Assembly (NCBI GenBank): GCA_020152595.1
Contig: JAIGNY010001454.1
Coordinates: forward strand, 403,501-467,500
DNA from: Chiridota heheva
Lineage: Eukaryota > Echinodermata > Holothuroidea > Apodida > Chiridotidae
Direction of reading: 5' to 3'
DNA length: 64,000 nt
Shown here piece by piece: positions 3,772 to 64,000 of this stretch; the first letter of the stretch is position 1; every line of letters starts with the position of its first letter. The notes under the pieces were generated by a model. It saw only the letters and a program-made list of their open reading frames with translations. It made no database searches and was not told where the DNA came from. The translations under genes were made by a program, and so were the position numbers.

Positions 3772-3898
3772 GGTAAATTTGGTGGGTGAATAGTCCAGGT
3801 GGGTGTAGGTGGGATGGTGTGTCTGGCATGTTGATGTTGGCTTTGGAGAAGTGGGAGTGCATCCGGATCACAAAAGGTGGGGGATGCATTAGTTGAGA

Positions 3899-9508: not shown

Positions 9509-9660
9509 CTGGTCCTTCAAATGGTTTTGCATCAATTCTGAGTCTCAAGCAAGGATCGGAAGCACAGAAGATGGCAGCATCAAGATCCCAGTCCGACAGG
9601 AGGGCAAGAAAGACATCCTCTCCCTCATCATCCTTGGACAAGTAGCTGATGGTGAACTCA
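9509..9660 (-). CDS. TBC1D25: TBC1D25 exon 3 (PB1-like domain, second half)
   Basis: A 152-nt internal exon read leftwards. The acceptor is CTCCCCTGTAG at 9661-9671 and the donor is CAG|GTACAA at 9509/9508. It needs one base to finish the Ser codon opened by exon 2, then encodes EFTISYLSKDDEGEDVFLAL and LLSDWDLDAAIF through DAKPFEGP. The run ISYL..D..G..V.L.LLSDWDL is diagnostic of the N-terminal region of TBC1D25, where it forms a PB1/ubiquitin-like fold ahead of the RabGAP domain. The exon ends in phase 1, so the next exon must start with two bases of a split codon; it was not found in the window. Confidence 0.9.
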
Positions 9661-10035
9661 CTACAGGGGAGAAACAGAACATGCAAGTTTGATGAAGAAG
9701 AAATACTTATCTCAGCATAACACACTGAAGGTAAACAAGTCATGCTCCTAATACCTTGACTTTTATTTTTTTCAATACAAAAATGCAAATTATTTTCTTT
9801 TTGACAATTTAAAATTTTAAATGTTATTCTTTTCAAAGTATGTTGCAACATGCTGATGCCTTTTAACTTCTACATTATTAGCTCCATCAAATGTTTGTAT
9901 TCCATTATGTTACTGTTATTGTTAATTACCTCACGAGGGTAGATTACACAATCAAAACACACATCTGAGCTACTGTATGGTTCCAAACTTTGCACAAAAT
10001 GAAACTAAAAAGAAACTTAAATTTTGACAATCAAA

Positions 10036-25910: not shown

Positions 25911-28900
25911 GGTTGAGTTAAGTGTCCAGCATACATGACTTGCACCAGAGAGGATTTTAGGTTTGAGTGTCCAGCATATGGCTAGTACCAGAGAGGATTT
26001 TAGGTTTGAGTTAAGTGTCCACCATATGGCTAGTACCAGAGAGGATTTTAGGTTTGAGTGTCCAGCATATGGCTAGTACCAGAGAGGATTTTAGGTTTGA
26101 GTTTAAGTGTCCACCATATGGCTAGTACCAGAGAGGATTTTAGGTTTGAGTATCCAGCATATGGCTAGTACCAGAGAGGATTTTAGGTTTGAGTTTAAGT
26201 GTCCACCATATGGCTAGTACCAGAGAGGATTTTAGGTTTGAGTATCCAGCATATGGCTAGTACCAGAGAGGATTTTAGGTTTGAGTATCCAGCATATGGC
26301 TAGTACCAGAGAGGATTTTAGGTTTGAGTTTAAGTGTCCACCATATGGCTAGTACCAGAGAGAATTTTAGGTTTGAGTGTCCACCATATGGCTAGTACCA
26401 GAGAGGATTTTAGGTTTGAGTATCCAGCATATGGCTAGTACCAGAGAGGATTTTATATTTGAGTTTAAGTGTCCAGCATATGGCTAGTACTAGAGAGGAT
26501 TTTAGGTTTGAGTGTCCACCATATGGCTAGTACCAGAGAGGATTTTAGGTTTGAGTGTCCACCATATGGCTAGTACCAGAGAGGATTTTAGGTTTGAGTG
26601 TCCACCATATGGCTAGTACCAGAGAGGATTTTAGGTTTGAGTATCCACCATATGGCTAGTACCAGAGAGGATTTTAGGTTTGAGTATCCACCATATGGCT
26701 AGTACCAGAGAGGATTTTAGGTTTGAGTGTCCACCATATGGCTAGTACCAGAGAGGATTTTAGGTTTGAGTATCCACCATATGGCTAGTACCAGAGAGGA
26801 TTTTAGGTTTGAGTATCCACCATATGGCTAGTACCAGAGAGGATTTTAGGTTTGAGTGTCCACCATATGGCTAGTACTAGAGAGGATTTTAGGTTTGAGT
26901 GTCCAGCATACGGCTAGTACCAGAGAGGATTTTAGGTTTGAGTGTCCACCATATGGCTAGTACCAGAGAGGATTTTAGGTTTGAGTGTCCACCATATGGA
27001 TAGTACTAGAGAGGATTTAGGTTTGAGTGTCCAGCATATGGCTAGTACTAGAGAGGATTTTAGGTTTGAGTGTCCACCATATGGCTAGTACCAGAGAGGA
27101 TTTTAGGTTTGAGTGTCCACCATATGGCTAGTACCAGAGAGGATTTTAGGTTTGAGTGTCCACCATATGGCTAGTACTAGAGAGGATTTAGGTTTGAGTG
27201 TCCAGCATATGGCTAGTACTAGAGAGGATTTTAGGTTTGAGTGTCCACCATATGGCTAGTACCAGAGAGGATTTTAGGTTTGAGTGTCCACCATATGGCT
27301 AGTACTAGAGAGGATTTTAGGTTTGAGTGTCCAGCATATGGCTAGTACTAGAGAGGATTTAGGTTTGAGTGTCCAGCATATGGCTAGTACCAGAGAGGAT
27401 TTTAGGTTTGAGTATCCACCATATGGCTAGTACCAGAGAGGATTTTAGGTTTGAGTGTCCACCATATGGCTAGTACCAGAGAGGATTTTAGGTTTGAGTA
27501 TCCACCATATGGCTAGTACCAGAGAGGATTTTAGGTTTGAGTGTCCACCATATGGCTAGTACCAGAGAGGATTTTAGGTTTGAGTGTCCACCATATGGCT
27601 AGTACCAGAGAGGATTTTAGGTTTGAGTGTCCACCATATGGCTAGTACTAGAGAGGATTTTAGGTTTGAGTGTCCAGCATATGGCTAGTACCAGAGAGGA
27701 TTTTAGGTTTGAGTGTCCACCATATGGCTAGTACCAGAGAGGATTTTAGGTTTGAGTGTCCACCATATGGCTAGTACCAGAGAGGATTTTAGGTTTGAGT
27801 GTCCACCATATGGCTAGTACCAGAGAGGATTTTAGGTTTGAGTGTCCACCATATGGCTAGTACCAGAGAGGATTTTAGGTTTGAGTGTCCACCATATGGC
27901 TAGTACCAGAGAGGATTTTAGGTTTAAGTGTCCACCATATGGCTAGTACTAGAGAGGATTTTAGGTTTGAGTGTCCAGCATATGGCTAGTACCAGAGAGG
28001 ATTTTAGGTTTGAGTATCCACCATATGGCTAGTACCAGAGAGGATTTTAGGTTTGAGTGTCCACCATATGGCTAGTACCAGAGAGGATTTTAGGTTTGAG
28101 TGTCCACCATATGGCTAGTACCAGAGAGGATTTTAGGTTTGAGTGTCCACCATATGGCTAGTACCAGAGAGGATTTTAGGTTTAAGTGTCCACCATATGG
28201 CTAGTACTAGAGAGGATTTTAGGTTTGAGTGTCCAGCATATGGCTAGTACCAGAGAGGATTTTAGGTTTGAGTATCCACCATATGGCTAGTACCAGAGAG
28301 GATTTTAGGTTTGAGTGTCCACCATATGGCTAGTACCAGAGAGGATTTTAGGTTTGAGTGTCCACCATATGGCTAGTACTAGAGAGGATTTTAGGTTTGA
28401 GTGTCCAGCATATGGCTAGTACCAGAGAGGATTTTAGGGTTTGAGTGTCCAGCATATGGCTAGTACCAGAGAGGATTTTAGGTTTGAGTGTCCACCATAT
28501 GGCTAGTACCAGAGAGGATTTTAGGGTTTGAGTGTCCACCATATGGCTAGTACCAGAGAGGATTTTAGGTTTGAGTATCCACCATATGGCTAGTACCAGA
28601 GAGGATTTTAGGTTTGAGTGTCCACCATATGGCTAGTACCAGAGAGGATTTTAGGTTTGAGTGTCCACCATATGGCTAGTACTAGAGAGGATTTTAGGTT
28701 TGAGTGTCCAGCATATGGCTAGTACTAGAGAGGATTTAGGTTTGAGTGTCCAGCATATGGCTAGTACCAGAGAGGATTTTAGGTTTGAGTGTCCACCATA
28801 TGGCTAGTACCAGAGAGGATTTTAGGTTTGAGTGTCCAGCATATGGCTAATACCAGAGAGGATTCAGGTTTGAGTGTCAGCATATGGCTAGTACCAGAGA

Positions 28901-29935
28901 GGATTTTAGGTTTGAGTGTCCACCATATGGCTAGTACCAGAGAGGATTTTAGGTTTGAGTGTCCAGCATATGGCTAGTACCAGAGAGGATTTTAGGTTTG
29001 AGTGTCCAGCATATGGCTAGTACCAGAGAGGATTTTAGGTTTGAGTATCCAGCATATGGCTAGTACCAGAGAGGATTTTAGGTTTGAGTTTAAGTGTCCA
29101 CCATATGGCTAGTACCAGAGAGGATTTTAGGTTTGAGTGTCCAGCATATGGCTAATACCAGAGAGGATTCAGGTTTGAGTGTCCAGCATATGGCTAGTAC
29201 CAGAGAGGATTTTAGGTTTGAGTGTCCACCATATGGCTAGTACCAGAGAGGATTTTAGGTTTGAGTGTCCAGCATATGGCTAGTACCAGAGAGGATTTTA
29301 GGTTTGAGTGTCCAGCATATGGCTAGTACCAGAGAGGATTTTAGGTTTGAGTATCCAGCATATGGCTAGTACCAGAGAGGATTTTAGGTTTGAGTTTAAG
29401 TGTCCACCATATGGCTAGTACCAGAGAGGATTTTAGGTTTGAGTGTCCAGCATATGGCTAATACCAGAGAGGATTCAGGTTTGAGTGTCCAGCATATGGC
29501 TAGTACCAGTGAGGATTTTAGGTTTGAGTTAAGTGTCCAGCATATGGCTAGTACCAGAGAGGATTTTAGGTTTGAATGTCCACCTTATGGCTAGTACCAG
29601 AGAGGATTTTAAATTTGAGTGTCCAGCATACGGCTAGTACCAGAGAGGATTTTATATTTGAGTGTCCAGCATATGGCTAGTACTAGAGAGGATTTTAGAT
29701 TTGAGTGTCCAGCATATGGCTAGTACTAGAGAGGATTTTAGGTTTGAGTTAAGTGTCCAGCATATGGCTAGTACCAGAGAGGATTTTAGGTTAAGTGTCC
29801 AGCATATGGCTAGTACCAGAGAGGATTTTAGGTTAAGTGTCCAGCATATGGCTAGTACCAGAAAGGATTTAAGGTTTGAATCAAGTGTCCACCATATGGC
29901 TAGTACCAGAGAAAATTTTAGGCTCGAGTTAAGTG
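25911..29935. repeat. Minisatellite, 43-bp unit, about 93 copies (4 kb)
   Basis: Unit GAGTGTCCACCATATGGCTA, GTACCAGAGAGGATTTTAGG, TTT. Variants are CCAGC/CCACC, GTACT/GTACC, and an inserted TTAA or TTTAA before GTGTCC. The marker unit GCTAATACCAGAGAGGATTC occurs at 28846, 29151 and 29457, showing a seven-unit higher-order repeat of about 305 bp in the right part. No gene lies inside; open frames are by-products. Confidence 0.98.
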
Positions 29936-35639: not shown

Positions 35640-36937
35640 TAAGCCATATATTTTTGATCTCAGGTCAAACATATTGCAGCAAATGCACACTATACCTCAC
35701 CATTAAGTGTGACCAATGCTCTTCACATATACTGTATGATCATTTGTTTAAGAAAAATCATCAAACTCACTTTAATTCAAGAGATACCACATATACAAAT
35801 ATTTTCATTGCTATGCAAATAGGCTACTTATTATGCACACACAATCCCCCAATCATGCTCAACTGAACAGTACCAATGCCCTCTACCACTGAACCAAATA
35901 GCAAGTTATTATCTCAGGATAAATAATTTGTATGCAAGTCTATTGTTATGCAAATAACCTACTTAATATGCTCACTACCCCTCACCATTGAGTGTAGACA
36001 AATGCTCTTAACATATATGATCATTTGTGTAGAACATAATCCCTACTCCCACTTTAATTTAAGAGATATTATAAATACAAATATATTCATTGTTATGCAA
36101 ATAAGCTAATTAGTAGTATGCACACACAACCCCAAATCATGCTCATTTGAGCAGTATCCATGTCCTCTACCCCTGTAACAAGTACCAAATTATTATCTAA
36201 GATTAAATATTTGATGCAAAAGTCTATTGTATGCAAATAACCTAATTAATATGCACACTATATCTCAACATTAAGCGTAGACAATGCTCTCCACATATAT
36301 GATCATTTGTGCAAACAAAATCCCCACTCTCACTTTAATTTCAGAGATATCATAGATACATTGTTATTCAAATAAGCTAATTAGTAGGCATACACAACCC
36401 CTGATCATGCTTATTTAAACAGTACCCATGTCCTCTACCCTGTGCCAAATTACATTGTACATCATTCATAACTTATGCGCTCATGGAAGTTACAAATTTT
36501 GTATGAGTCTATTATTATGCAAATAACCTAATTAATATGCACACTTCACCTCATTTTCATTGTTATTCCAATAAGCTAATTAGTAGGCACACACAAACCC
36601 TAATCATGCTCACTTGAGGAGTACCCCTAAGCCAATAAGCCAATTAAGTTATGAAAACTTTAACCTAAAACTTTAACCAAAACTTTAACCTGACAAATAC
36701 TTTCATTGTTATGCAAATAAGCTAAGTAAGCACACACAATCCTGCAATCATGCACATTTGATCAATACCCATGTCCTCTACTGCTATGATGTCAAGTCAC
36801 ATGATTGTACGCCATTCATAACTTACTGTTAGTTATAAAAACTTGAACCAAAACTTTACCGGATGCCGACGCAGACACCAATGCCCACACAGGTAATAGT
36901 AGAATTGCTCTATTATTCTTTGAATAGACGAGCTAAA
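35640..36937. repeat. Octamer-bearing dispersed repeat, copy 2, with hairpin end
   Basis: About five diverged ~240-bp units of the family seen at 11890-12720. Exact ATGCAAAT octamers occur near 35814, 35948, 36094, 36231, 36518 and 36711, usually beside CTAATTAG or TTAATTAA. The right end (36900-36937) folds as GCTCTATTATTC / GAATAGACGAGC and then reads CTAAAAA. A terminal hairpin followed by CTRR resembles a Helitron 3' end. The 58-bp minisatellite starts at this terminus. Confidence 0.75.
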
Positions 36938-38934
36938 AACTGTTCAGTTACCAAGAAATAAACCACTTTTACAATAGGCAAGTATAGGAGCTAAAAACTG
37001 TTCAGTTACCAAGAAATAAACCACTTTTACAATAGACAAGTATAGGAGCTAAAAACTGTTCAGTTACCAAAAAAATAAACCACTTTTACAATAGGCAAGT
37101 ATAGGAGCTAAAAACTGTTCAGTTACCAAGAAATAAACCACTTTTACAATAGGCAAGTATAGGAGCTCAAAACTGCTCAGTTACCAAGAAATAAACCACT
37201 TTTACAATAGGCAAGTACAGGAGCTAAAAACTGTTCAGTTACCAAGAAATAAACCACTTTTACAATAGGCAAGTATAGGAGCTAAAAACTGTTCAGTTAC
37301 CAAGAAATAAACCACTTTTACAATAGGCAGTATAAGAGCTAAAAACTGTTCAATTACCAAGAAATAAACCACTTTTACAATAGGCAAGTATAGGAGCTAA
37401 AAACTGTTCAGTTACCAAGAAATAAACCACTTTTACAATAGGCAAGTATAGGAGCTAAAAACTGTTCAGTTACCAAGAAATAAACCACTTTTACAATTTT
37501 AGCTAAAAACTGTTCAGTTACCAGGCAATAAACCACTTTTACAATAGTATAGGAGCTAAAAACTGTTCAGTTACCAAGAAATAAACCACTTTTACAATAG
37601 GCAAGTATAGGAGCTAAAAACTGTTCAGTTACCAAGAAATAAACCACTTTTACAATATGCAAGTATAGGAGCTAAAAACTGTTCAGTTACCAGAAAATAA
37701 ACCACTTTTACAATAGGCAAGTATAGGAGCTAAAAACTGTTCAGTTACCAAGAAATAAACCACTTTTACAATAGGCAAGTATAGGAGCTAAAAACTGTTC
37801 AGTTACCTACAGTAGAAATAAACCACTTTACAATAGGCGTATAGGAGCTAAAACTGTTCATTACCAAGAAATAAACCACTTTACAATAGGCAAGTATAGG
37901 AGCTAAAAACTGTTCAGTTACCAAAAAATAAACCACTTTTACAATAGGCAAGTATAGGAGCTAAAAACTGTTCATTACCAAGAAATAAACCACTTTTACA
38001 ATAGGCAAGTATAGGAGCTAAAAACTGCTCAGTTACCAAGAAATAAACCACTTTTACAATAGACAAGTATAGGAGCTAAAAACTGTTCAGTTACCAAGAA
38101 ATAAACCACTTTTACAATAGGCAGTATAAGAGCTAAAAACTGTTCAGTTACCAAGAAATAAACCACTTTTACAATAGGCAAGTATAGGAGCTAAAAACTG
38201 TTCAGTTACCAAGAAATAAACCACTTTTACAATAGGCAAGTATAGGAGCTAAAAACTGTTCAGTTACCAAGAAATAAACCACTTTTACAATAGGCAAGTA
38301 TAGGAGCTAAAAACTGTTCAGTTACCAAGAAATAAACCACTTTTACAATAGGCAGTATAAGAGCTAAAAACTGTTCAGTTACCAAGAAATAAACCACTTT
38401 TACAATAGGCAAGTATAGGAGCTAAAAACTGTTCAATTACCAAGAAATAAACCACTTTTACAATAGGCAAGTATAGGAGCTAAAAACTGTTCAGTTACCA
38501 AGAAATAAACCACTTTTACAATAGGCAAGTATAGGAGCTAAAACTGTTCAGTTACAAAAAATAAACCACTTTTACAATAGGCAAGTATAGGAGCTAAAAA
38601 CTGTTCAGTTACCAAGAAATAAACCACTTTTACAATAGGCAGTATAAGAGCTAAAAACTGTTCAGTTACCAAGAAATAAACCACTTTTACAATAGGCAAG
38701 TATAGAAGCTAAAAACTGTTCAGTTACCAGGAAATAAACCACTTTTACAATAGGCAAGTATAGGAGCTAAAAACTGTTCAGTTACCAAGAAATAAACCAC
38801 TTTTACAATTGGCAAGTATAGGAGCTAAAAACTGTTCAGTTACCAAGAAATAAACCACTTTTACAATAGGCAAGTATAGGAGCTAAAAACTGTTCAGTTA
38901 CCAAGAAATAAACCACTTTTACAATAGGCAAGTA
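36931..38934. repeat. Minisatellite, 58-bp unit, about 34 copies
   Basis: Unit AGCTAAAAACTGTTCAGTTA, CCAAGAAATAAACCACTTTT, ACAATAGGCAAGTATAGG. The first bases of the unit are the last bases of the dispersed element to its left, suggesting that the array grew from the element's end. Confidence 0.97.
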
Positions 38935-39519
38935 TACATGTAGTCCTTTAAAGCACTTGTCCAAACCAAATTCCCCCATAAACCAGGGTTTAATATAAAG
39001 TGGTACCTCCATGGTTTAATTATTGTCAAGACTTTCAAGGCTGTTGGCACAATTTTACACCCTAATTAAATCTTTCCCAACCATGTGTCCTAATCACTTA
39101 ACAAGGGTTGAACTGCAAACTGGTCTTTTCAGGCAAGTCTTAATATGTATATTAACAACCATAGGCTTACACCCCAGAATTCTCAAAATAAAGGGAGGGG
39201 GGGTGGGGAGAAGTAGTTTTGCCTGAATGACTGCAATTTTATGGTTTTATTGTATTTTTTTTAAATTTTAGGTGATATTCATTAAATTCTCGTAACCTAC
39301 CAAACATTTACGAAGGTGACCCGTTGTATTTTCATTTTGACATTTGATACATGTAAGTGTGCCCCAAACCCCAACATGCCATGCACGGATTTATCCATTC
39401 ACCAGATAGATTTTCAAGAATTTTTCAGCATTGGGAACATTTGCCCTCTCAACCTTTAAAGCCCAGCCTACCATGCAAAGTGCATATTACCCACAGCACA
39501 AAATGTGTGAGGTTTTGAA
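38935..39519. other. Intron 1, no gene seen
   Basis: AT-rich sequence with a G-run at 39194-39210. Nothing else recognised. Confidence 0.45.
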
Positions 39520-43696: not shown

Positions 43697-44169
43697 TGTC
43701 ACGCGAGAGTATGGCAATTACACAACTCCATAGAAAATCGCACACACGTAAACACAACTTATACGCCCCAGTAGTTATTCCAGGAATGCAACTCACAATT
43801 GCTTCCTCCAGATTATTTGCATAAACGCAGTTCTGGCGGGTTTTCTATTTTGAGTTAACAATCCGGTTGGGAGGGGCAGTTGCCTGATATCTTGCAAAGG
43901 ACGCGGATGGGAGAGAGCCAAGGGCTCGAGAGTTTACCATTAAAGTATACATTGGATAAAATTGAAGAAAATCTTGGTGTAATTTTCCCACCATTGAGGG
44001 TCGGTAATATCATCGTTTGATATTTAGTCATTGAGGACTGAAGTTAATTAATGGATTCTTCGGGGCAAATGAGTGTCCACGATTAAAAAACTCCCGAAAG
44101 TGCCGTTAGACATGTTCAACTCTTGAACAAAATTGTTTGGTTGCCCGGCAATCCCTTGGGCTGTTAGAC
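43697..44169 (+). repeat. 5' LTR, 3'-truncated
   Basis: About 473 bp matching 46733-47206 of the 3' LTR with few differences. Identity stops after GGCTGTTAGA, where integrase sequence begins. The part with the AATAAA signal is missing. Confidence 0.93.
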
Positions 44170-44170
44170 G

Positions 44171-44866
44171 ATAGACCTTGTAGGACCAATCCAGCCTATA
44201 ACCGAAAGAGGAAATAGGTATATCCTCACCCTTGTGGATTACGCCACGCGCTATCCCGAGGCTGTTGCATTGCCGAGGATAGACACAGAAAGAGTAGCAG
44301 AGGCTCTCTTAGAAATCTTTTCCAGAACTGGCATACCTTCAGAAATTTTATCTGATCTTGGTACTCAGTTCACCTCCGATTTGATGAAGAAGGTTGAACG
44401 GCTGTATTCCATCAAACACTTAAACACCACGCCTTACCACCCGATTTGTAACGGGTTAGTAGAAAAATTCAATGGTACTTTAAAAAGGATGTTAAAACGC
44501 ATGTGTTGTGAAAGACCTAAGGATTGGGATCGTTACCTTCCCGCCATTTTATTTGCTTATAGAGAAGCACCACAAGCCAGTCTATTATTCTCGCCATTTG
44601 AACTTCTTTATGGTCGAACAGTTTGTGGACCACTCCAAATTTTACATGAATTATGGTCCGGTGAAAGTCTTGATGAAAATGTTAAGACAACCTATGAATA
44701 TGTTCTGGATTTAAGGGATCGTTTAGATTCCACATGCCAAATTGCTAGAAGTGAACTTGTTAAAGCAAGTAACAGATTTTGCAAGTACTATGATGCTCGA
44801 TCCAAAGATCGAAAGTTCAAAACAGGTGATCTAGTCTTGTTGTTGTTGCCAACAGAACACAACTAA
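44171..44866 (+). pseudogene. Gmr1-like integrase core (N-terminally deleted, ends in premature stop)
   Basis: The frame opens at the deletion junction with IDLVGPI, so the HHCC zinc finger is gone. The catalytic triad is complete: Asp at 44174-44176, Asp of SDLGTQF at 44354-44356, and Glu of GLVEKFNG at 44462-44464. The last two are separated by exactly 35 residues (DD35E). A TAA at 44864-44866 interrupts the frame just before the WKGPF (GPY/F) module. Integrase joins the DNA copy to host DNA. No ATG supports translation from here. Confidence 0.9.
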
Positions 44867-46510
44867 TTAACCTTACAATGGAAAGGTCCATTTAAAGTGA
44901 TCGACAAAATCGCCCAAAATGTCTACAAAATTGATATCGCAGGGAAAGAGAGAAAGTTTCATGATAATATGCTGAAAAGGTATCAAACAAAAGAGGAAAA
45001 TCAAATTGGTAGCTTGTATGCTGCTGCAGCCTTTGTTAAAGGGCATGCTAGTGTAATTGAGGAAGATGAAAATTGTTCAGATGATTCACAAGTCAAATTG
45101 TTACCCCTCGAACAAAATGAGTGTTTATGTCAACATAGAGATGAAAAAGAAAAGAGTCAAGTAAACAGTCTTCTGAGGAAGCACTCAAATGCTTTGACTG
45201 AAATTCCAGGGTGTACAAAGCTTGCCCATCATTCAATTCATTTGACTACCGAGGATCCTGTGAGATCCAAGGCGTATCCTACGCCTTTAGCGATGCAAAA
45301 AACAATCAAAAGTGAGCTAGAAACAATGCTCAAAATGGGAGTGATTAAAAAATCTAATTCAAGCTATGCGTCACCCATTGTCTTAGTTCGTAAACCTGAT
45401 GGGTCAAACAGATTCTGTATAGATTACAGGAAGATAAATATGGTCACTGTGTTTGATCCTGAACCTGTGCCTAATTCAGAGAATCTTATGTCAGTCCTTG
45501 CCAAAGCAAAATACTTTTCAAAATTGGAACTTGCCAAAGGCTACTGGCAAATCCCTATTCGAGACAAAGAGAAAACGGCCTTTATAACGTCAGAGGGCTT
45601 ATACCAATTCAAAGTTCTTCCGTTTGGTCTTGTTAACGCCCCTGCTATTTTCTCACGCATGATGCGTAAACTATTAGATGGTCAAGATCATGTGATAAAT
45701 TATATAGATGATATTCTTATCAATACCGATACATGGGATGAGCACGTCAATGTTTTAGAATCAGTGTTTAGACGAATTGAACAGGCAGCTTTAATTGCTA
45801 GACCAACAAAGTGTATGGTTGGGTATGAGTCACTAGAGTTTTTAGGGCATATTGTTGGAAAGGGGCTCATCAAACCGCAGCCCAGCAAAATCATGGAAGC
45901 TTCCCCACCAAAGACAAAAAAGGAAGTAAGATCGTTCATGGGACTCACAAATTACTATAGAAAGTTTATACCAAATTTTTCAGCAATTGCCGACCCATTG
46001 ACTGATTTAACCAAAAAGGATTATAAATCACAGGTAAATTGGGGTGAAGCTCAACAACGAGCATTTGATACATTAAAAGCGAGATTTTCCAGTTCGCCGA
46101 TTTTACATCTACCAGACAATGACAAAGTTTTCATTTTAAGAACAGACGCATCCGACACTGGAATTGGTGCTATCTTAATGCAGCAAGAGGGTGATCAAAG
46201 TTTCCCCATAGGTTATGCTAGTCGAAAACTATTGCCACGAGAAACAAGATATTCAGTCATTGAAAGAGAGTGTTTAGCCATAATATGGGCTATCCTGAAA
46301 TTTCACATTTACCTTTATGGCAGACAATTTATCATAGAAACAGATCACCAACCTCTTACTTACCTCTCTACTATGAAATTTTCTAATAACCGTGTCATGA
46401 AATGGGTGCTGAGCTTACAGCCATATAGATTTACACTCAGAGCCATTAAGGGTAGTGACAACTCGGGTGCTGATTTTCTTAGTAGATGCAGTAAAGAATT
46501 TGAATAAGTT
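44867..46510 (+). pseudogene. Gmr1-like reverse transcriptase and RNase H
   Basis: In the same frame as the integrase after one stop codon. It first completes the integrase GPY/F tail (QWKGPFKVIDKIAQNVYKI), passes a ~100-residue linker (no protease motif), then gives an RT domain with SSYASPIVLVRKPDGSNRFC, IDYRKIN, LPFGLVNAP and YIDDIL (45701-45718). RNase H follows with RTDASDTGIGA, ERECLAI and ETDHQPL. The usual Asp of the LDLxxGYWQ box is Glu (KLELAKGYWQ, 45527-45529), which would be expected to impair catalysis. Stop at 46505-46507. Confidence 0.9.
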
Positions 46511-47795: not shown

Positions 47796-48785
47796 AGGGA
47801 GATCCTCAGTCAGCTGAGCTGAGTGTACCAATGAGATGCAGAGGAGACAGGTGCCTCAGTCAGCTGAGCTGAGTGTACCACTGAGATGCAGAGGAGAGAG
47901 GTGCCTCAGTCAGCTGAGCTAGGCATACCACTGAGATGCAGAGGAGACAGGTGCCTTAGTCAGCTGAGCTGAGCGTACCACTGAGATGCAGAGGAGACAG
48001 GTGCCTCAGTCAGCTGAGCTGAGTGTACCACTGAGATGCAGAGAAGAGAGGTGCCTCAGTCAGCTGAGCTAGGCATACCACTGAGATGCAGAGGAGACAG
48101 GTGCCTCAGTCAGCTGAGTTAAGCATACCACTGAGATGCAAAGGACACAGGTGCCTCAGTCAGCTGAGTTAAGCATACCACTGAGATGCAGAGGAGACAG
48201 CTGCCTCAGTCAGCGGAGTTGAGCGTACCACTAAGATGCAGAGGAGACAAGTGCCTCAGTCAGGTGAGTTGAGCATACCACTGAGATGCAGAGGAGACAG
48301 GTGCCTCAGTCAGCTGAGCTAGGCATACCACTGAGATGCAGGGGAAACAGGTGCCTCAGTCAGCTGAGCTAGGCATACCACTGAGATGCAGAGGAGACAG
48401 GTGCCTCAGTCAGGTGAGTTGAGCGTACCACCGAGATGCAGAGGAGACAGGTGCCTCAGTCAGCTGAGCTAGGCATACCACTGAGATGCAGGGGAAACAG
48501 GTGCCTCAGTCAGCTGAGCTAGGCATACCACTGAGATGCAGAAGAGACAGGTGCCTCAGTCAGGTGAGTTGAGCATACCACTGAGATGCAGAGGAGACAG
48601 GTGCCTCAGTCAGCTGAGCTAGGCATACCACTGAGATGCAGAGAAGACAGGTACCTCAGTCAGGTGAGTTGAGCGTACCACTGAGATGCAGAGGACACAT
48701 GTGCCTCAGTCAGGTGAGTTGAGCGTACCACTGAGATGCAGAGGACACAGGTGCCTCAGTCAGCTGAGGTTAGCATACTGAGATG
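47796..48785. repeat. Minisatellite, exact 50-bp unit, about 20 copies
   Basis: Unit CTGAGATGCAGAGGAGACAG, GTGCCTCAGTCAGCTGAGCT, AGGCATACCA. There are almost no length changes between copies. Most units hold CAGCTG, a generic E-box. Confidence 0.97.
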
Positions 48786-52366: not shown

Positions 52367-55290
52367 AATGACAAGAAAGCAAGAGTTGCTGATCTCATCA
52401 CCTTAAGCATACAACATAGTGGGGAGATAGCTAACAAGAAAGCAATCCTCAGAGTTGCTGATCTCATCACCCTAAGCATACAGCATAGTGGGGGAGATAG
52501 CTAACAAGAAAGCAATACATGGAGTTGCTGATCTCATCACCTTAAGCATACAACATAGTGGGGGAAATAGCTAACAAGAAAGCAATCCATGGAGTTGCTG
52601 ATCTCATCACCTTAAGCATACAACATAGTGGGGGAAATAGCTAGCAAGAAAGAAATCCATGGAGTTGCTGATCTCATCACCTTAAGCATACAGCATAATG
52701 GGGAGATAGCTAACAAGAAAGCAATCCATGGAGTTGCTGATCTTATCACCTTAAGCATACAGCATAGTGGAGGAGATAGCTAACAAGAAAGCAATACATG
52801 GAGTTGCTGATCTCATCACCTTAAGCATACAGCATAGTAGGGGAAATAGCTAACAAGAAAGCAATCCACAGAGTTGCTGATCTCATCACCTTAAGCATAC
52901 AACATAATGGGGAGATAGCTAACAAGAAAGCAATCCTCGGAGTTGCTGATCTCATCACCCTAACCATACAGCATAGTGGGGGAGATAGCTAACAAGAAAG
53001 CAATACATGGAGTTGCTGATCTCATCACCTTAAGCATACAACATAGTGGGGGAAATAGCTAACAAGAAAGCAATCCATGGAGTTGCTGATCTCATCACCT
53101 TAAGCATACAACATAGTGGGGGAAATAGCTAGCAAGAAAGAAATCCATGGAGTTGCTGATCTCATCACCTTAAGCATACAGCATAATGGGGAGATAGCTA
53201 ACAAGAAAGCAATCTATGGAGTTGCTGATCTTATCACCTTAAGCATACAACATAGTGGGGAGATAGCTAACAAAAAAGCAATACTCGGAGTTGCTGATCT
53301 CATCACCTTAAGCATACAGCATAGTGAGGAGATAGCTAACAAGAAAGCAATACATGGAGTTGCTGATCTCATCACCTTAAGCATACAGCATAGTAGGGGA
53401 AATAGCTAACAAGAAAGCAATCCACAGAGTTGCTGATCTCATCACCTTAAGCATACAGCATAGTGGGGGAAATAGCTAACAAGAAAGCAATATATGGAGT
53501 TGCTGGTCTCATCACCTTAAGCACACAGCATAGTGGGAGAAATACCTAACAAGAAAGCAATCCACGGAGTTGCTGATCTCATCACCCCAAGCATACAGCA
53601 TAGTGGGGGAAATAGCTAACAAGAAAGCAATCCAAGGTGTTGCTGGTCGCATCACCTTAAGCATACAGCATAGTGGGAGAAATACCTAACAAGAAAGCAA
53701 TACATGGAGTTGCTGATCTCATCACTTAAAGCATACAACATAATGGGGAGATAGCTAACAAGAAAGCAATCCTCGGAGTTGCTGATCTCATCACCTTAAG
53801 CATACAGCATAGTGGGGGAGATAGCTAACAAGAAAGCAATCCATGGAGTTGCTGATCTCATCACCTTAAGCATACAGCATAGTGGGGGAGATAGCTAACA
53901 AGAAAGCAATACATGGAGTTGCTGATCTCATCACCTTAAGCATACAACATAGTGGGGGAAATAGCTAACAAGAAAGCAATCCATGGAGTTGCTGATCTCA
54001 TCACCTTAAGCACACAGCATAGTGGGAGAAATAGCTAACAAGAAAGCAATCCATGGAGTTGCTGATCTCATCACCTTAAGCATACAGCATAGTGGGGGAA
54101 ATAGCTAACAAGAAAGCAATCCAAGGTGTTGCTGGTCGCATCACCTTAAGCATACAGCATAGTGGGAGAAATACCTAACAAGAAAGCAATCCATGGAGTT
54201 GCTGATCTCATCACTTAAAGCATACAACATAATGGGGAGATAGCTAACAAGAAAGCAATCCTCGGAGTTGCTGATCTCATCACCTTAAGCATACAGCATA
54301 GTGGGGAGATAGCTAACAAGAAAGCAATCCATGGAGTTGCTGATCTCATCACCTTAAGCATACAGCATATTGGGGGAAATAGCTAACAAGAAAGCAATTC
54401 ATGGAGTTGCTGATCTCATCACCTTAAGTATACAGCATAGTGGGGGAAATAGCTAACAAGAAAGCAATCCATGGAGTTGCTGATCTCATCACCTTAAGCA
54501 TACAGCATAGTGGGAGAAATAGCTAACAAGAAAGCAATCCATGGAGTTGCTGATCTCATCACCTTAAGCATACAGCATAGTGGGGGAGATAGCTAACAAG
54601 AAAGCAATACATGGAGTTGCTGATCTCATCACCTTAAGCATACAACATAGTGGGGGAAATAGCTAGCAAGAAAGCAATCCATGGAATTGCTGATCTCATC
54701 ACCTTAAGCATACAACATAGTGGGGGAAATAGCTAGCAAGAAAGAAATCCATGGAGTTGCTGATCTCATCACCTTAAGCATACAGCATAGTGGGGGAAAT
54801 AGCTAACAAGAAAGCAATCCATGGAGTTGCTGATCTCATCACTTAAAGCATACAACATAATGGGGAGATAGCTAACAAGAAAGCAATCCATGGAGTTGCT
54901 GATCTCATCACTTAAAGCATACAACATAATGGGGAGATAGCTAACAAGAAAGCAATCCTCGGAGTTGCTGATCTCATCACCTTAAGCATACAGCATAGTG
55001 GGGAGATAGCTAACAAGAAAGCAATCCATGGAATTGCTGATCTCATCACCTTAAGCATACAGCATATTGGGGGAAATAGCTAACAAGAAAGCAATTCATG
55101 GAGTTGCTGATCTCATCACCTTAAGTATACAACATAGTGGGGGAAATAGCTGACAAGAAAGCAATCCATGGAGTTGCTGATCTCATCACCTTAAGCACAC
55201 AGCATAGTGGGGGAAATAGCTAACAAGAAAGCAATCCATGGAGTTGCTGATCTCATCACCTTAAGCATACAGCATAGTGGGGGAAATAGC
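52367..55290. repeat. Minisatellite, 69-70-bp unit, about 42 copies, just upstream of TBC1D25
   Basis: Unit AATAGCTAACAAGAAAGCAA, TCCATGGAGTTGCTGATCTC, ATCACCTTAAGCATACAGCA, TAGTGGGGGA. A marker variant (CAATCCTC) occurs at 52443, 52931, 53767, 54257 and 54953. Several gaps are about 488-490 bp, showing a seven-unit higher-order repeat. Open frames are by-products (69 is 3x23). Confidence 0.97.
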
Positions 55291-57161
<1,871 letters not shown>

Positions 57162-57162
<1 letters not shown>

Positions 57163-57430
57163 TACCCCGCTAAGCGTATGGGGATATTTACGAGAGTTAT
57201 ACTTACCTTCCATGCTATAATATGCAATCTGGTCACACGACCTGATTCTAACGCACTTCTAACCGAACCTAAAAACGCAGTAACCAGCCAAGCCCTGACC
57301 TCCATAATACCTCTGTACCACCTCACTCAACATTCCACCGAGGCCTGAACGAGAGGGGAGGCGGGCAGGATGCATGGAAGGTAGTATAACTCGTAAATAT
57401 CCCCGCTACGCTTAGCGGGGTAAATTTACT
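57162..57430. repeat. Fold-back (inverted repeat) unit at the island edge
   Basis: The arm at about 57162-57213 (TTTACCCCGCTAAGCGTATG to TTACCTTCCATGC) is inverted at about 57373-57425 (GCATGGAAGGTAGTATAACT to TAGCGGGGTAAAT), enclosing about 160 bp. The right arm also contains its own hairpin CCCCGCTA-CGCT-TAGCGGGG. The word TTACCTTCCATGCTATAATA repeats directly at 57203 and 57443, 240 bp apart. Its complement (GGAAGGTAAGT) resembles a splice donor. Confidence 0.85.
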
Positions 57431-59100
57431 TCAAGTTATACCTTACCTTCCATGCTATAATATGCAATCAGATTGCAACAGAGGATAGGAAGGAAGGGAG
57501 TTCAGATCGCCGCACATTTTTTTTTTTTTTTTTAATGGCTGGTACGAAAACTCACACGAACCGAATCCCGTTTAAAGGACGAAATTCCTTCACCTCGAAA
57601 GGATGAAAGACCTCAAGAGTGGGAAGAACTAAAACAGAGGAAACCACGGCGAGGTACAGTCAAACCGAACAAGGCACCATTCGTTGACAGTAACGGAGGC
57701 AAACCTCGAAAGAACCTGAGCGTAAAGCCCAGAAAAACAAGCCAACCGGAAGAGCGTTTGGACACAATTACAGCAAAGTGTCCACAAAAAACGCCACAAG
57801 CCACACCGGATTCGTCCACGAGACAGAACCGGCGAGGAAACTACGATTGGGAACGAAGCGTGTACCAACGAAAACGAATGGAAGAAATCCCGGACAAGGG
57901 AAAAATTCGTCAGCGCATAACCGCGTAAGAGCTAAAGTTAGCGGGGGAACACGAACGTCGAAAAGTGAGTCAGACCAAAAACAAGAGAACCGCAAAAAGC
58001 GGTTTCTCGAACGCCGGCACGAGAGATCCCGTGAAAAGAGGTTATGCCCCGAACCCGAGTGCATACCGCGGCCGTTCTATGAACAGTTCAGACCACTTTA
58101 ACAGAAAGCCACTGGATGATCTATCGGAGGAAAATGTCACATGACACACTACAAAGAGATCTCCCAGAACTCACCAGTGGTCGCGAGTCAAAGACCGTGA
58201 GACCCCACCGGAAAAACCCTGGTGGATAGCTGCAAGTTATCCCAGAGCTCATGACGGAACTAAGCTTGAGAGAGGGCCCACCTCCACAACGGGAGGGCGA
58301 ACAACCCCTCAGAAAAGCCATGCTACGTCGAGGAAAGGCGGCCGAGGCCACACCAGCAAACGAAGCACTCCGGGACTGAGATGCAGTCCGCCGGAGCCGG
58401 AAAGAGACAAAAATCGTCCCTGACCCGGAGGCTCGTACGTGAAGCCTGCAAGGTCTTGAGCAGCCAAAGTTCGTCCTGCGCCGAGACGAAAAAGGGTCAA
58501 GTACCGCCAAGTTTCCGACAGAAGGGGTCACCAGAAAAGTGCCCCGACCTTGATCAAGAAGCCCCGTCGGCGATATCTGACGGGTGAAAACTTCGCTCCA
58601 TTACACCAGGTGGGAGCACCCGCACCACCACCAAAGGGTGTGACCACCGACTGAACGTGTAAAGCGGAGGGACTGAACGACACCATCCGCAGCCCAGAAA
58701 AAGCTGCCGACCCTGAGCAAAGGTTGTTGAAACCGACTGACCAAAAATCAAAGGCTAGCGAAACAAAAGGCAGGCCGTTAATATAAAACGATACAAGAAG
58801 GGCTGCCAACCGTGTAAGGCTATGTAGCGGTGAGACGGCATGGGTCGTGAAGACCGCTGAGCCGCACAACATAGTCGACGGCACCAAGCGAGGTCCGAAA
58901 ACTGTAGCAGTTGCGGGACCGCGTAGCTCCAGGCCACGCCTATCAACAGCGAAACTTGTCTAAGAAGTTGATTGGAGAAAGTGTTAACGCACTCGTATAG
59001 TAACAACCTTGAAACCGCGGAGCCTACGGGCTCGGTAGCGGAGAAAACGAATACCGTATGTCTGTACGGGCAGTTAAGTAACAGGCCGTAAAACCGCAAG
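57431..59100. repeat. CpG-rich island, left part; no recognisable gene
   Basis: Composition is markedly richer in CpG than the rest of the window. Long overlapping open frames exist on both strands (for example 57778-58101 plus, 57768-58064 minus, 58121-58531 minus). They are R/S/P-rich, match nothing I recognise and overlap each other, as expected in stop-poor G+C-rich DNA. I cannot exclude a small unknown gene. Confidence 0.5.
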
Positions 59101-60230
59101 GAAGCAGCTGTAAGGTGTTAAAGTATGGAAGGAACCATACGTGCGTTGTTGGTAATAGCTACCCCAAACGTAAGGTTGTCTACCAAAAGGCCACCTATGG
59201 TCAAGAAAAATATCCTTCATGGAGGTAATATTGACAAGTAGGGGTAACGTACTACGTCAACCGTATGAGTCATAAACCCCAACACTGGGGTAGAAATCAC
59301 GAAAGAGGTGGCGTCCTGTGTATACTACACGGACCGTTAAACACCCTGCACCACGGAGCGGAAAAGCGGCGTGGCTACTGGGGGGGACTTACGCCGCACA
59401 AAGCACGCAACCCCGTTAAGTATAATAGATCCGTTATGGGTCTACAAAGGCGTCAGCATGACAAGTAAAAACCACGAGTCCACCGCCAACGATGTAGCTG
59501 TGCACCACGGAGCAAAAAAGCTCGTGGCTACGCCGAGGGGACAACTGGTACTGAGCGGAAGTAGCCATCAGTACCAAAGGACCGTCTAGGTCCACGATAG
59601 CGTGAACGTGCTACACCTGTAACGTGAGTCGTTATCTCATGATACCTCTATTCACCACGGGCCACCGAGTAAGTGGGCGACGCCAGGGGAAGAAGTACAC
59701 ACACGCAGCGTTCCGTTGAGAATAGGTAAAATATATATAAACTGAGGCCGTAAGAAATACGGAGGAGTTCACGTGCCACGCAAGCTATCAATGAAAGTCG
59801 TAAACTGAGTTTGTTCCATCACGGACTCTGAAACCGGTAGCTGCGTGGGAAGAGGGGACTACCGTCACTCAGTCACGTGTCCCGGTAAGAGAAACGGCCG
59901 CGTAACGCAGTAGTTCATGGCTACTGGTCCTCTACCACACAGCGCGCTGGTATGGGCCGTTAACTCCGTTTGTATAAAATCACTCACGGAGCCGCGAAGC
60001 CGGGCGGCTACGCGTGGGGACTGCCGTCAACGCGAAAAACGCCCCAGCAAGAAACGAGCAGCGGAACACTGCAACACGCGGCTAACGGTCGCAATATCCC
60101 GGTTCCGATACCGGGTTTATCGACGTTGTACGTAAAACCGCGTTAATATCTGTAGAATGTGAGCGAAGGTCGTTCGACGCAAGAATCACATTCAGAGTAG
60201 TTTGAACGGTGCGTGGAACTACGTAACACG
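59101..60230. repeat. Diverged tandem array, ~150-165-bp hairpin units
   Basis: The pattern CACGGAGC..GTGGCTAC..GGGGAC returns at about 59350, 59503, 59650, 59816 and 59982. The flanks often pair (for example CCACGAGCTTTTTTGCTCCG read on the minus strand). Sequence between units is strongly diverged. No coding signal. Confidence 0.65.
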
Positions 60231-62575
60231 GAGGAATAGCCCTCGTGATGGTATGCCTCCCGTACAGAAGGATCTTATCACCCGAGCGCTAGGCCTCGAA
60301 ACCCGAGCAAGCGCTAACACGCGCGCATCCTGGGAGCGTGGCGCACCGACAAGCGGGGACTCGCCCTGCGTGTCCATGAACTGGTGAAAACTATGCGGAA
60401 CCGTGGCGTTCAACGCGAAAATCTCACCAAGTCAGCTCACACGGACGTGGGGATCTCGAAACTAACGGGTGTGACGACGTTGCACGTTACCTTGCTGTAG
60501 AACTAAGCAGCACTACAGACCCAAAGCGTCATCCCATGCCCCGGACGGAGCCGCCAAGTTGTGTTACGGACCCGCACGGGCTGTAAAACAAGCCGTGGGG
60601 CGTATGGAACCGACATCGAGCCGTCACGGACCCTAATGGACCCGTGCAAGGAATCCAATGGCTCTACAACTAGCCGTAAAAAGGGGACTAACTCACGTAA
60701 GACCCGTAGGGCGTCGCCTCTTGTTGGCCGACCGGTCCCATCGCGGAACCGAGGACCACAGCGGTGTACACGGGTTTGAACAAGTCGATACACCAAAGCG
60801 CAACCTAAGAAGCGTTTACATGCGACGATCGCAGGACAGTCAAGGCGCGTAGAACGCATCCGACACTAGGGACCTGCCCGTCGTGTCGGCCGATGATATA
60901 GGCGCAAAACATCGCGGAACTGTGACGTTCAACGCGCGGAAAATCCTACAGAGGCAGTTCACGGCCGTGGGACAGCGTAGCTATGACCAAGCAGCTTCCT
61001 AGCTAGCGAACTCAACCGGGGTTCATCGTACAGTGCATGCGTTATCCCGTTGCAAAAACTCGAAGTCGTACAGGCCCGCACGGTCAGAGAAGCGTTTGCA
61101 CGCTATGCAAAGCGGGACCTCTGAGGTGCGTAACGCATCGGCCGACGGAGGCCTGTCCCGTGCCTACGATACTGGTGAAAGTAATTGCGGAAATGTAACG
61201 TTCAACGCGGATAATCGTATAAATGGTGTTCACATGATCGTGGAACTGCGTAGCTAATGGCCACGGAACCATGAATAGAATAGCTCTCACGGCGCTATAC
61301 TACTTGTGAAGATTATCACTTGTCACCTGGCCACATAGCTCGTAGCTAGCGGGTGCATATCGGGTAAATCGTATGCGGTGTCACGATATCCCGTTACAAA
61401 ACCACGGAGCCGCATGCGCATCCGAACACCGGAGCCGCACGCTCGGTCGCACCTTGGAAAAAATACGGTCGCGGTGGAGTCTGTGCTCCGACCACGCGCT
61501 GGAACCCAATCGCTGCAAAGAGTACCACGAATGGACTCGCAGCATAATCTGCATGCGTGCTTGGCGTGAGATGGACGTGACCGGGCGTAAAGCAAAGAAG
61601 CGTTATCACGCTATGCGGGTCATCAAGGGTGTGTAGAGCATCGGCGCCCGAGGACCTGTCCTCCATGTCCATGATACTGGTGAAAATAATTACGGAACGG
61701 TAATGTTCAACGCAGACAATCTTAATTGCGTTCGCACGAAGTCGTGGAACTGCGTAGCTAATGGCTACGGGACCAAGAAGAAAATAGCTGTCGTGATGCT
61801 ATACTTCTTGTAAAGAAAGTCATCTGTCACCTGACCACGTGAGCGTAGTAGCTAGTGGGCGTATAACCGGGTGAACCGTACGGTGTACGTTATCCCATTA
61901 AAGATAAGTTCCGCTCACTGGAGCCGCCCAATGGAAGCGAAAAGGACCCGTAAACGCGGACCGTGGAATCGTATGGAACGTGCGGACCCGTAAACACGGG
62001 CCACGGAACCGTCCAATGGAACGTGCGGACCCGTAAAACACGGACCGTGGAACCGCACGGACCCGTAAACATGGGCGTGGAACCGTATAACTGTAGCCGT
62101 TGGCTACGGGACCAGAAGAAAGATAGCTGTCTCAATGCTATACTTCCGGATGAACCGCACGATTGTCGTCTTTCAAGATATCGCTGCAAAGAGTACAGGG
62201 ATTTGACTCGCAGCATAATCTGCACGCTGCGTAACACGTGAGATGGATGTCACGGGCGTAATTTAAAAAGCGTTTGCACGCGCTCGCATCACGAGACATC
62301 CTGGGTGTGTAAAAACATCGACATTCGGGGACCTGTCCTTCATGTCCATGATACTGGTGAAAATAAATACGGAACTTGTAACGTTCAACGAGACAGTCTT
62401 AATTGCGTTCACACGAGCCGTGGAACTGCGTAGCTAATGGCTACAGGACCAAGAAGAAAAATAACTGTCAATGCTATACTTCTTGTCAAGAATGTCACCT
62501 GTCACCTGACCACGTAGCTAGTGGGCGTATAACCGATTAAACCGCATCGATGTACGTGAACCCGTTAAATACGGA
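60231..62575. repeat. Diverged tandem array, longer units (about 280-680 bp)
   Basis: The block ACTGGTGAAAATAATTACGG, AAC..TAACGTTCAACGCG recurs at about 60382, 60890 (degraded), 61170, 61676 and 62352. Each is followed at a similar distance by CGTGGAACTGCGTAGCTAAT, GGCTACGG and a GCGTTTGCACGC-type block. Spacing varies because segments were gained or lost. No open frame is conserved between copies. Confidence 0.75.
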
Positions 62576-63135
62576 CCGTGTAAACACGGGCAGCGGAACC
62601 GCCCAATGGAACCGTCCGCCCGTAACAACGGGCGGAACCGTCAATGGAACCGTCCAATGGAACCGTCCGCCCGTAACAACGGGCGCGGAACCGTATGGAC
62701 CACGGAACCGTCCGCCCGTAACAACGGGCCGCGGAACGTATGGATCCCGGAACCGTATGGATCCGTTCCGAACCGCACAATGCCGCACATAGGGCTGCAG
62801 AACCGTCAGGGATGGTCCAACGGAACCGTATGGAACCGACGCCCGTAACAACGGGCGCGGAACCGTATGGAACCGTCCAATGGAACCGTCCGCCCGTAAC
62901 AACGGGCCGCGGAACCGTATGGAACCGTCTGCCCGTAACAACGGGTCGCGGAACCGTATGGAACCGCCCAATGGAACCGTTCACCCGTAATAACGGGCGC
63001 GGAACCGCCCAATGGAACCGTTAAGCCCGTAACAACGGGCCGCGGAACCGTATGGACTCACGGAACCGCCCAATGGAACCGTTAAGCCCGTAACAACAAG
63101 CCGCGGAACCGTATGGACTCGGAACCGTATGGAAC
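62576..63135. repeat. GGAACCGT array with nine CCGCCCGT-AACA-ACGGGCGG hairpins
   Basis: Short units (about 40-60 bp) combine GGAACCGTATGGAACCGTCC, AATGGAACCG and a perfect or near-perfect hairpin GCCCGTAACAACGGGC. Hairpins lie near 62618, 62668, 62712, 62850, 62889, 62929, 62983, 63026 and 63088. The AACA loop is constant in eight of nine (AATA once). Stem changes at about 62929 (TGCCCGT/ACGGGTC) and 63088 show decay. Confidence 0.85.
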
Positions 63136-63138
63136 CGT

Positions 63139-63391
63139 CCCCGGACTCACAACAACCAGCGTTCAACGCGTTACAAGGGTTGTGGAATCGACAGGGACTG
63201 TCCAATGGAACCGTTGGAACCGCCCCGGACTCACAACAACCAGCGTTCAACGCGTTACAAGGGTTGTGGAATCGACAGGGACTGTCCAATGGAACCCGTT
63301 GGAACCGCCCCGGACTCACAACAACCAGCGTTCAACGCGTTACAAGGGTTGTGGAATCGACAGGGACTGTCCAATGGAACCGTTTGGAACC
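63139..63391. repeat. 84-85-bp tandem triplication
   Basis: Three nearly identical copies starting CCCCGGACTCACAACAACCA at 63139, 63223 and 63308. They include GCGTTCAACGCGTTACAAGG, a word shared with the larger units at 60.4-62.4 kb. Confidence 0.95.
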
Positions 63392-63402
63392 GTGTTTACA
63401 AC

Positions 63403-63490
63403 TTAGGCGGCGTTCGTTAACGCCCTAAGAGGTTATCTCTCTCTCTCTCTTACGTTACGCTCTAGGCGCAACGCCCAAGAGCGTAACCTT
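63403..63490. other. Two adjacent hairpins with a CT microsatellite
   Basis: CTTAGGCGGCGTTCGTTAAC, GCCCTAAG folds with a two-base bulge. GTTACGCTCT and AGAGCGTAAC form a perfect 10-bp stem around GGCGCAACGCC. A short (TC)n run separates them. Confidence 0.75.
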
Positions 63491-63514
63491 CTCAGTGAAT
63501 CTCTTTTATATCTG

Positions 63515-63825
63515 AAAAGAGAAGAACATATATCCATGCGTACATACACAAACACGGCAAAGTAAGTATGATCTTACGGACACGCTAAAGAGAGACGAGG
63601 CCTAGCAGTCTAAACAGAACATCAAAACTCTCTTAAAGAGAAAAAATTTACTGAAAAATAAATTTCTTAAGAGAAGAACGTAAGTCCAAGCGCGTACAAA
63701 CCTAAACACGGCAAAGTAACTATGATCTTACGGACACGCTAAAGAGAGACGAGGCATAGCATTCTAAACAGAACAACAACACTTGCTTTAACAGAAAAAA
63801 TTTAAAACCAAAAAATTTCTATCTG
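63515..63825. repeat. 154-bp direct duplication
   Basis: ACACGGCAAAGTAAGTATGA, TCTTACGGACACGCTAAAGA, GAGACGAGGC starts at 63552 and again, with few changes, at 63706. Flanking AAGAGAAGAACxTA words are also repeated. Confidence 0.9.
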
Positions 63826-63962
63826 AAAACTCTAGAAACCGAGAAAACGCGCATCCAACGTAATGACTTTACTAGCGCCGGGTAGCGTGGGAAACACCAA
63901 CCACTGTGTTACTTGAGGTCTGTAAAGATAAAAGGAAAGATTATTTTCCCTGTAATTAGGTC

Positions 63963-63993
63963 GTCGGAGAGACCCACCCACGGTCTCTCCGAC
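63963..63993. other. Perfect 12-bp inverted repeat near window end
   Basis: GTCGGAGAGACC (63963-63974) and GGTCTCTCCGAC (63982-63993) with a 7-nt loop. It could be a hairpin terminus or terminator-like structure of whatever repeat continues beyond the window. Confidence 0.8.
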
Positions 63994-64000
63994 ACCCCAA

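Follow-up and report, generated by a model that had tools for sequence, protein, structure and literature searches.

A CpG-rich island in Chiridota heheva read as part of a long, high-copy DNA transposon without recognizable coding capacity

Introduction

Non-autonomous DNA transposons are usually short, and miniature inverted-repeat transposable elements (MITEs) usually measure under about 600 bp. Tc1/mariner elements duplicate a TA target, and Helitrons insert between A and T without duplication and have 5'-TC and CTRR-3' ends and no inverted repeats. In the available part of one account, two kinds of PHIS transposon are described, of which ISL2EU duplicates AT at its target, and Spy inserts without duplication and prefers AAATTT (PMC4482050). 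The endogenous nimaviruses of sesarmid crabs, as far as the available part of their description goes, are integrants of 265-285 kb that insert in (AT/TA)n, carry a 46-bp repeat and use a Ginger2-like integrase (PMC10871703). Here, a repeated element of the holothuroid Chiridota heheva is compared with these systems. It was met in a stretch of 64,000 nucleotides of contig JAIGNY010001454.1 (GenBank assembly GCA_020152595.1, positions 403,501 to 467,500 of the forward strand), called the window below, in which a CpG-rich island follows a (TA)n tract and continues to the last base. This island, 57161-64000, is read, with a probability of about 0.9, as the left ~90% of a single copy of a non-coding DNA transposon that is young, present in high copy number and flanked by terminal inverted repeats, most copies of which are about 7.7 kb long. 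The element lacks recognizable coding capacity as far as the searches reach, is bounded by TTTAC...GTAAA and, at empty sites, inserts precisely between A and T; in the sample surveyed it tolerates many AT-rich sites and often lies in (TA)n tracts. No such element is named in the open-access literature looked through, which does not show that it is undescribed.

Copies and ends of the element

Genome searches covered the 1.10-Gb assembly in 3744 contigs. Positions 57300-58300 of the window have 39 other relatives at 94-98% identity, all matching over more than 900 of the 1001 bases (40 places scored, the window included, of 2526 candidates). An earlier note on this DNA, made from the sequence alone, had listed the edge of a large mobile element among several possible natures of the island, and this is the one that the dispersed relatives, together with defined ends and precise empty sites, bear out. 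Across 57535-60300, the window and seven other copies are 94.1-97.4% identical over ungapped columns; these eight rows, left after locus L062 was filtered out, hold 390 gaps, 369 of them not multiples of three, counted per row, so that a single insertion may be tallied more than once.

Exact matches to the 23-base inner/right end number 2033, of which 992 are forward and 1041 reverse, against none for its reversed control, and at two per complete element this gives an estimate of about 1000 elements. Among the first 100 places listed for this 23-mer are 28 convergent pairs less than 30 kb apart; their median span is 7464 nt, and 18 of them span 7-8 kb. All 40 scored places match the 161-nt right end at 100% identity over 159 nt or more, but they were the best 40 of 1868 candidates and hence a biased sample. 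Six of six loci picked by the right end alone bear the same element, some rearranged. Where both ends were located, copies measure 7936, 7742, 7564, 7661 and 8459 nt, with 7717 nt for the C693 copy (printed positions). On C1190 lies a sister element whose left and right ends are 85% and about 69% identical, respectively, to those of the element; another retroelement lies inside it, and frames at L055:about 1999-2525 (- strand) within this sister element resemble a DIRS-type reverse transcriptase. The C251 copy holds a nested insertion of about 5 kb (L061:about 2455-7431) with GTCGGGAATAA close to one of its edges and TTATTCCCGAC close to the opposite one; no frame of at least 100 residues was found in this insertion, which is perhaps another long non-coding inverted-repeat element.

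Insertion sites

Of 34 copies, 33 have a resolved left junction, which follows an A in 32 of them and a T in one. A TA run of 12 nt or more abuts 12 of the 33 junctions, and the other 21 lie away from such runs. The right flank starts with TAT in 15 of 15 copies of one set; three additional copies have TAC, TAT and TTC there. A dispersed high-copy repeat (L101-L108) surrounds the C628 copy, whose joined flanks match 40 uninterrupted paralogs at 91-95% (40 scored of 2958 candidate places). All eight empty paralogs that were fetched read ...TATTATAAATACCC... across the junction, with no bases lost or gained, which gives a precise insertion between A and T. The left flank of the C900 copy stops at the same position of another copy of this target repeat (the right end of the C900 copy was not found), and the C1303 and C58 copies interrupt tandem arrays without gain or loss, as read. 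Loci L079 (C900) and L092 (C628) are two insertions at the identical position in two copies of one dispersed repeat.

Insertion of TTTAC...GTAAA without duplication and insertion of TTAC...GTAA with duplication of AT are two descriptions of one junction. A TA target duplication is ruled out, since many left flanks end in AAA and the empty sites read TATAAA^TACCC; in this the junctions differ from those of Tc1/mariner elements. The earlier suggestion of a misjoined contig does not fit either, since on other contigs, too, copies begin with this left end, beside (TA)n or in ordinary sequence.

Architecture of the window copy

From comparison with other copies, the junction of the window copy lies between A 57160 and T 57161 or, equivalently, at a 2-bp AT target at 57160-57161; the features that follow are collected in Table 1. 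In pieces of other copies, the left end of the element reads TTTACCCCGCTAAGCG... and the right end ...ACTTGAAGTAAA; the two are inverted, TTTAC...GTAAA, and have about 140 bp in common. The left module could be delimited at 18 of 20 loci, among them the window, and measures 256-269 nt there (the other two have no left end by the search word used). Its inverted arms in the window, 57162-57215 and 57372-57423, are 91% identical, and it meets the inner end as GTAAA-TTTAC. Over 45 nt, this inner end, TTTACTTCAAG..., and the right end of copy C2001 are perfect inverted repeats of each other, and its first 23 bases are the 23-mer counted above. A hairpin, CCCCGCTA...TAGCGGGG, stands near the left end, and a T-rich tract occupies the position of the T16 tract in four other same-orientation copies of alignment A1, three further rows of which are reversed.

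Table 1. Features of the window copy and its insertion target, in window coordinates
Feature	Position	Strand	Basis or remarks
(TA)n tract, insertion target	56710..57161	.	226 copies of a 2-nt unit; Tandem Repeats Finder
Left module, 264 nt	57161..57424	+	Outer hairpin-type end TTTACCCCGCTAAGCG..., inverted copy at inner side
Second, inner end	57425..57469	+	TTTACTTCAAGTTATACCTTACC..., matches the right end in inverted orientation
T16 tract, onset of strong A-over-T asymmetry	57519..57534	+	Sequence, base profile
Unique T-poor, CpG-rich interior without coding signal	57535..60343	+	No self-match at E<=1e-3
Diverged long units with common GTTCAACG	60344..62590	+	Families D6, D9; self-BLAST, unit alignment
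Short 30-61 nt units rich in GGAACCGT	61944..63127	+	Two groups: about 61944-62085, 62595-63127
Three 85-nt units, last two identical	63127..63380	+	
Two 152-nt units, 84.5% identical	63517..63820	+	
Continuing element sequence	63821..64000	+	About 0.8 kb to right end lies beyond the window, reading N

The several classes of diverged tandem unit reported earlier are present: long units, in which the GTTCAACG motif recurs near 60370, 60889, 61162, 61667 and 62344 at spacings of 273-677 nt, and units of 30-61, 85 and 152 nt. Many of the short units rich in GGAACCGT carry a CCCGTAACAACGGG hairpin, and fold z on the + strand reaches -3.3 at 62551-62700 and -3.7 at 62851-63000. Window position 64000 corresponds to L056:8333, and the L056 copy ends at 9145, so that the right end of the window copy should fall near 64.8 kb, within a run of 5000 N. 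The left edge first given for the island is kept; on the right, the feature extends past the end of the window. Runs of N, 2500 or 5000 bases long, occur at L047:501-5500 (directly after the window) and L051:2001-4500, and further from L051:9501 to L052:2000 and from L057:8801 to L058:3800.

Base composition

The ratio of observed to expected (o/e) CpG is 0.28 in window 1-56700, 0.87 in 57162-57530 and 1.06-1.45 in pieces of 57530-64000, in keeping with the sharp compositional shift already remarked on behind the (TA)n tract; per kilobase, it is 0.95-1.46 from 57001 onward. Base asymmetry is strong from the T16 tract (A 0.41, T 0.09 at 57601-57750) and declines rightward. Five copies, each measured separately, have a GC content of 0.515-0.527, a CpG o/e of 1.24-1.27 and an AT skew of +0.21 to +0.24. 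A comparison of diverged internal units within the window copy finds 86 of 134 CpG and 74 of 114 GpC retained (units of 85 and 152 nt do not enter these totals, and sequences recur among the three pairs compared), so that CpG is not a preferred site of change between these units. The CpG richness would be a property of the element itself, retained through the recency of its spread, and the internal tandem units may have arisen from repeated local duplication inside the element.

The background of the window is depressed in CpG by CpG-free minisatellites. Arrays with units of 43-70 nt occur at 1127-2161, 12823-15358, 25921-29929, 36930-38936, 47804-48778 and 52383-55290, and the kilobases that they occupy are CpG-poor.

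Mobilization and comparison with described systems

With no transposase match at the cut-off in four open reading frames of the window copy and ten of copy C2001, the element would be mobilized in trans. The likely mechanism would be cut-and-paste by a PHIS-superfamily DDE transposase, with ISL2EU as the most plausible group, and this attribution to a PHIS/ISL2EU-type enzyme is tentative. Family PF13359 (PHIS-type DDE_Tnp_4) has 90 matches in the genome. A 515-residue open frame at L109:2045-3589 (- strand), at one of the four PF13359 loci fetched, contains one of them; it has a THAP-like start, resembles a THAP-DDE protein, and possibly represents an ISL2EU-type transposase or a host gene.

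The element resembles MITEs in having no recognized coding, inverted ends, a high copy number and near-identical ends, but at 7564-8459 nt it is more than 10 times their usual length, and its interior is CpG-rich, strand-asymmetric and supplied with its own tandem arrays. With ISL2EU, as described in the available part of the source, it shares inverted ends, AT-rich targets and an insertion compatible with AT duplication, the latter being one of two equivalent readings (PMC4482050), and PHIS DDE sequences occur in the host genome. It differs from ISL2EU in that it has no transposase match at the cut-off, spans about 7.7 kb without recognized coding and has a composite left end, and no partner with its ends was found at the four PF13359 loci fetched. 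Compared with Spy, to the extent that the same source covers it, duplication-free insertion is the other equivalent reading of the junctions and the left flank of the element is A-rich, whereas the right flank, TAT in 15 of 15 copies, does not match an AAATTT site (PMC4482050).

Several points weigh against reading the island as a young, high-copy, non-coding transposon mobilized in this way. No transposase source with the element ends TTTACTTCAAGTTATACC was found at the four PF13359 loci fetched, where matches to the element ends or the T tract reach at most 26 nt, and none of the termini listed (about 220 of more than 2000 places, compared by eye) lies less than 60 kb from a PF13359 match. 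Non-autonomous elements do not usually reach 7.7 kb, the strong A-over-T asymmetry is puzzling in a non-coding element, and the junctions are compatible alike with no duplication and with an AT duplication. The copy number rests on an exact 23-mer. Some copies are incomplete, with about 5.4 kb, partly inverted, in C2538, and about 3.0 kb, by internal deletion, in C58; the right end was found in two of the four right-end pieces fetched and was absent from the other two; and because of the retroelement nested in it, the length of the sister element says nothing about a conserved length. As 345 of the 390 row gaps are of 1-2 nt, some of them possibly assembly errors, 94-98% may understate the identity of the copies. 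As to composition, CpG o/e outside the element ranges over 0.29-1.35 in 500-nt pieces of L057 and 0.23-1.06 in the flanks of five copies; it is therefore not uniformly low, and the contrast in the window exceeds that in the genome. Singleton C>T and G>A changes number 37 of 2985 at CpG against 37 of 6766 at other sites. As further kinds of change are likewise more frequent at CpG, this excess is not used as evidence of methylation.

An element that has apparently spread to about a thousand copies at 7.7 kb without a recognizable gene, and whose left end is composite and whose composition sets it apart from the rest of the window, is relevant to how a long non-coding interior stays intact. Its copies also scatter CpG-rich islands and minisatellite-like arrays over many sites, a potential source of error in annotating genes and regulatory islands.

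Alternative explanations

It is conceivable, though unlikely, that the interior is selected non-coding cargo, acting as RNA or reflecting a single-stranded replication step. This idea draws on the strand-asymmetric, CpG-rich sequence that is still recognizable in L051, a subfamily copy about 80% identical, and, if true, it would make the element a non-coding replicon or RNA-bearing transposon unlike known cut-and-paste elements. The description of the island as hairpin-packed proved too strong: in 57535-63420 there are 4 perfect stems of at least 7 bp with a short loop, where shuffles give 2.5 +/- 1.7, few hairpins are strong, and stems are in excess in 62561-63420 (3 vs 0.9) and 63421-64000 (3 vs 0.3). 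Fold energies lie modestly under those of shuffles, with a mean fold z, similar for the two strands, of -1.0 in 150-nt windows (arrays included; background -0.2), -0.7 in 80-nt windows (background +0.1 to +0.2) and -0.4 in 120-nt windows (background 0.0). Folding of two 0.6-kb alignments of five sequences, among them L051, which served for the structure comparison, gave unfavorable covariation terms (+3.95 and +5.96), with compensated double changes at 4 of 164 and 3 of 151 pairs. In three segments, retained pairs number 372 against 359.8 +/- 5.5 in permutations on the + strand (reached by 8 of 500) and 386 against 371.4 +/- 6.2 on the - strand (3 of 500), and this retention above the permutation null, which is not strand-specific, is a weak sign of conserved RNA structure.

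A rolling-circle, Helitron-like element is unlikely. One of the two equivalent readings of the junctions, insertion between A and T with no net duplication, would suit it, and single-stranded replication could explain both the AT skew of +0.21 to +0.24 in all five copies measured and the subterminal hairpin CCCCGCTA...TAGCGGGG near the left end. Perfect inverted ends of 45 nt, the roughly 140 bp common to left and right ends and termini that read TTTAC...GTAAA rather than TC...CTRR all speak against it.

A self-sufficient element, its gene spliced or too diverged to recognize, is improbable, although the size fits an autonomous element and the T-poor strand has long stop-free stretches. No Pfam family was found at E<=0.1 in four island open reading frames (ORFs) of the window, and ten ORFs of copy C2001 gave no match at the cut-off, one weak match (E 0.73) falling far below it. 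Three-base periodicity is absent from six island pieces of the window copy (P3/mean 0.18-2.27), compared with 6.87 and 7.20 in two reverse transcriptase (RT) ORFs of the window and 1.97 in an integrase ORF. The 369 of 390 row gaps that are not multiples of three, some of them perhaps assembly errors, do not suit a coding interior either. As for RNA genes, no tRNA was found, and Rfam at the gathering score gave 0 matches in the window and three loci with other copies; at E<=1, eight microRNA-like matches were obtained on 56500-64000, all on the TA tract, and nothing else. The earlier statement that no conserved reading frame, RT, transposase or RNA gene is recognizable here holds as far as these searches go, as does the absence of known coding domains in the 14 ORFs of the two copies.

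The edge of a large virus-like integrant, which the earlier note had also considered, is very improbable. It would resemble the nimaviruses of sesarmid crabs in its insertion in TA microsatellites, as far as these are described in the available part of the source (PMC10871703), and the island abuts a (TA)n tract, as do 12 of the 33 resolved left junctions. The other 21, however, lie away from TA runs of 12 nt or more, and the element is complete at about 7.7 kb, with no viral gene found, against 265-285 kb and other ends in the crab integrants, whose 46-bp repeat, as given there, its ends do not resemble by eye (PMC10871703). No Pfam match at the cut-off was obtained in the 14 ORFs (nimavirus proteins were not compared directly), and blastn found no match with phages (57530-61000) or plasmids (57162-64000). 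Exact or gapped patterns gave 0, 28 and 0 stretches in IMG/VR, the 28 stemming from a 15-base word, and the gapped pattern gave 10 stretches in GTDB genomes; in a BLAST of the 38 pattern loci against the island, the best E value among the 20 matches listed was 0.044, read as chance, and none of the 10 GTDB stretches is among these 20.

A host structured non-coding RNA locus or an unmethylated satellite is equally remote: CpG kept about as often as GpC (86/134 vs 74/114), slightly low fold energies and pairs retained slightly above the permutation null on both strands lend it some color, but insertions are dispersed with distinct flanks and precise empty sites, no head-to-tail arrays of the whole unit occur, the 39 other scored relatives refute a single locus, covariation terms are unfavorable (+3.95, +5.96), and the two strands give similar folding effects, which a stranded RNA would not. 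A ribosomal DNA spacer, a processed retrocopy with the T16 tract as poly(A), a long non-coding RNA gene with its promoter near 57.2 kb, the virus edge and the misjoin were given up in the face of the dispersed copies and the empty sites.

Other features of the window

Away from the element, an Integrase core (rve) lies upstream of a Ty3-type RT/RNase H in adjoining ORFs at 44168-46504 (+ strand), an order that we take to resemble that of Gmr1 elements. On the - strand, 9465-9869 is a stop-free frame with a Pfam match below the cut-off only, and a stretch within it resembles an exon of the TBC1D25 gene.

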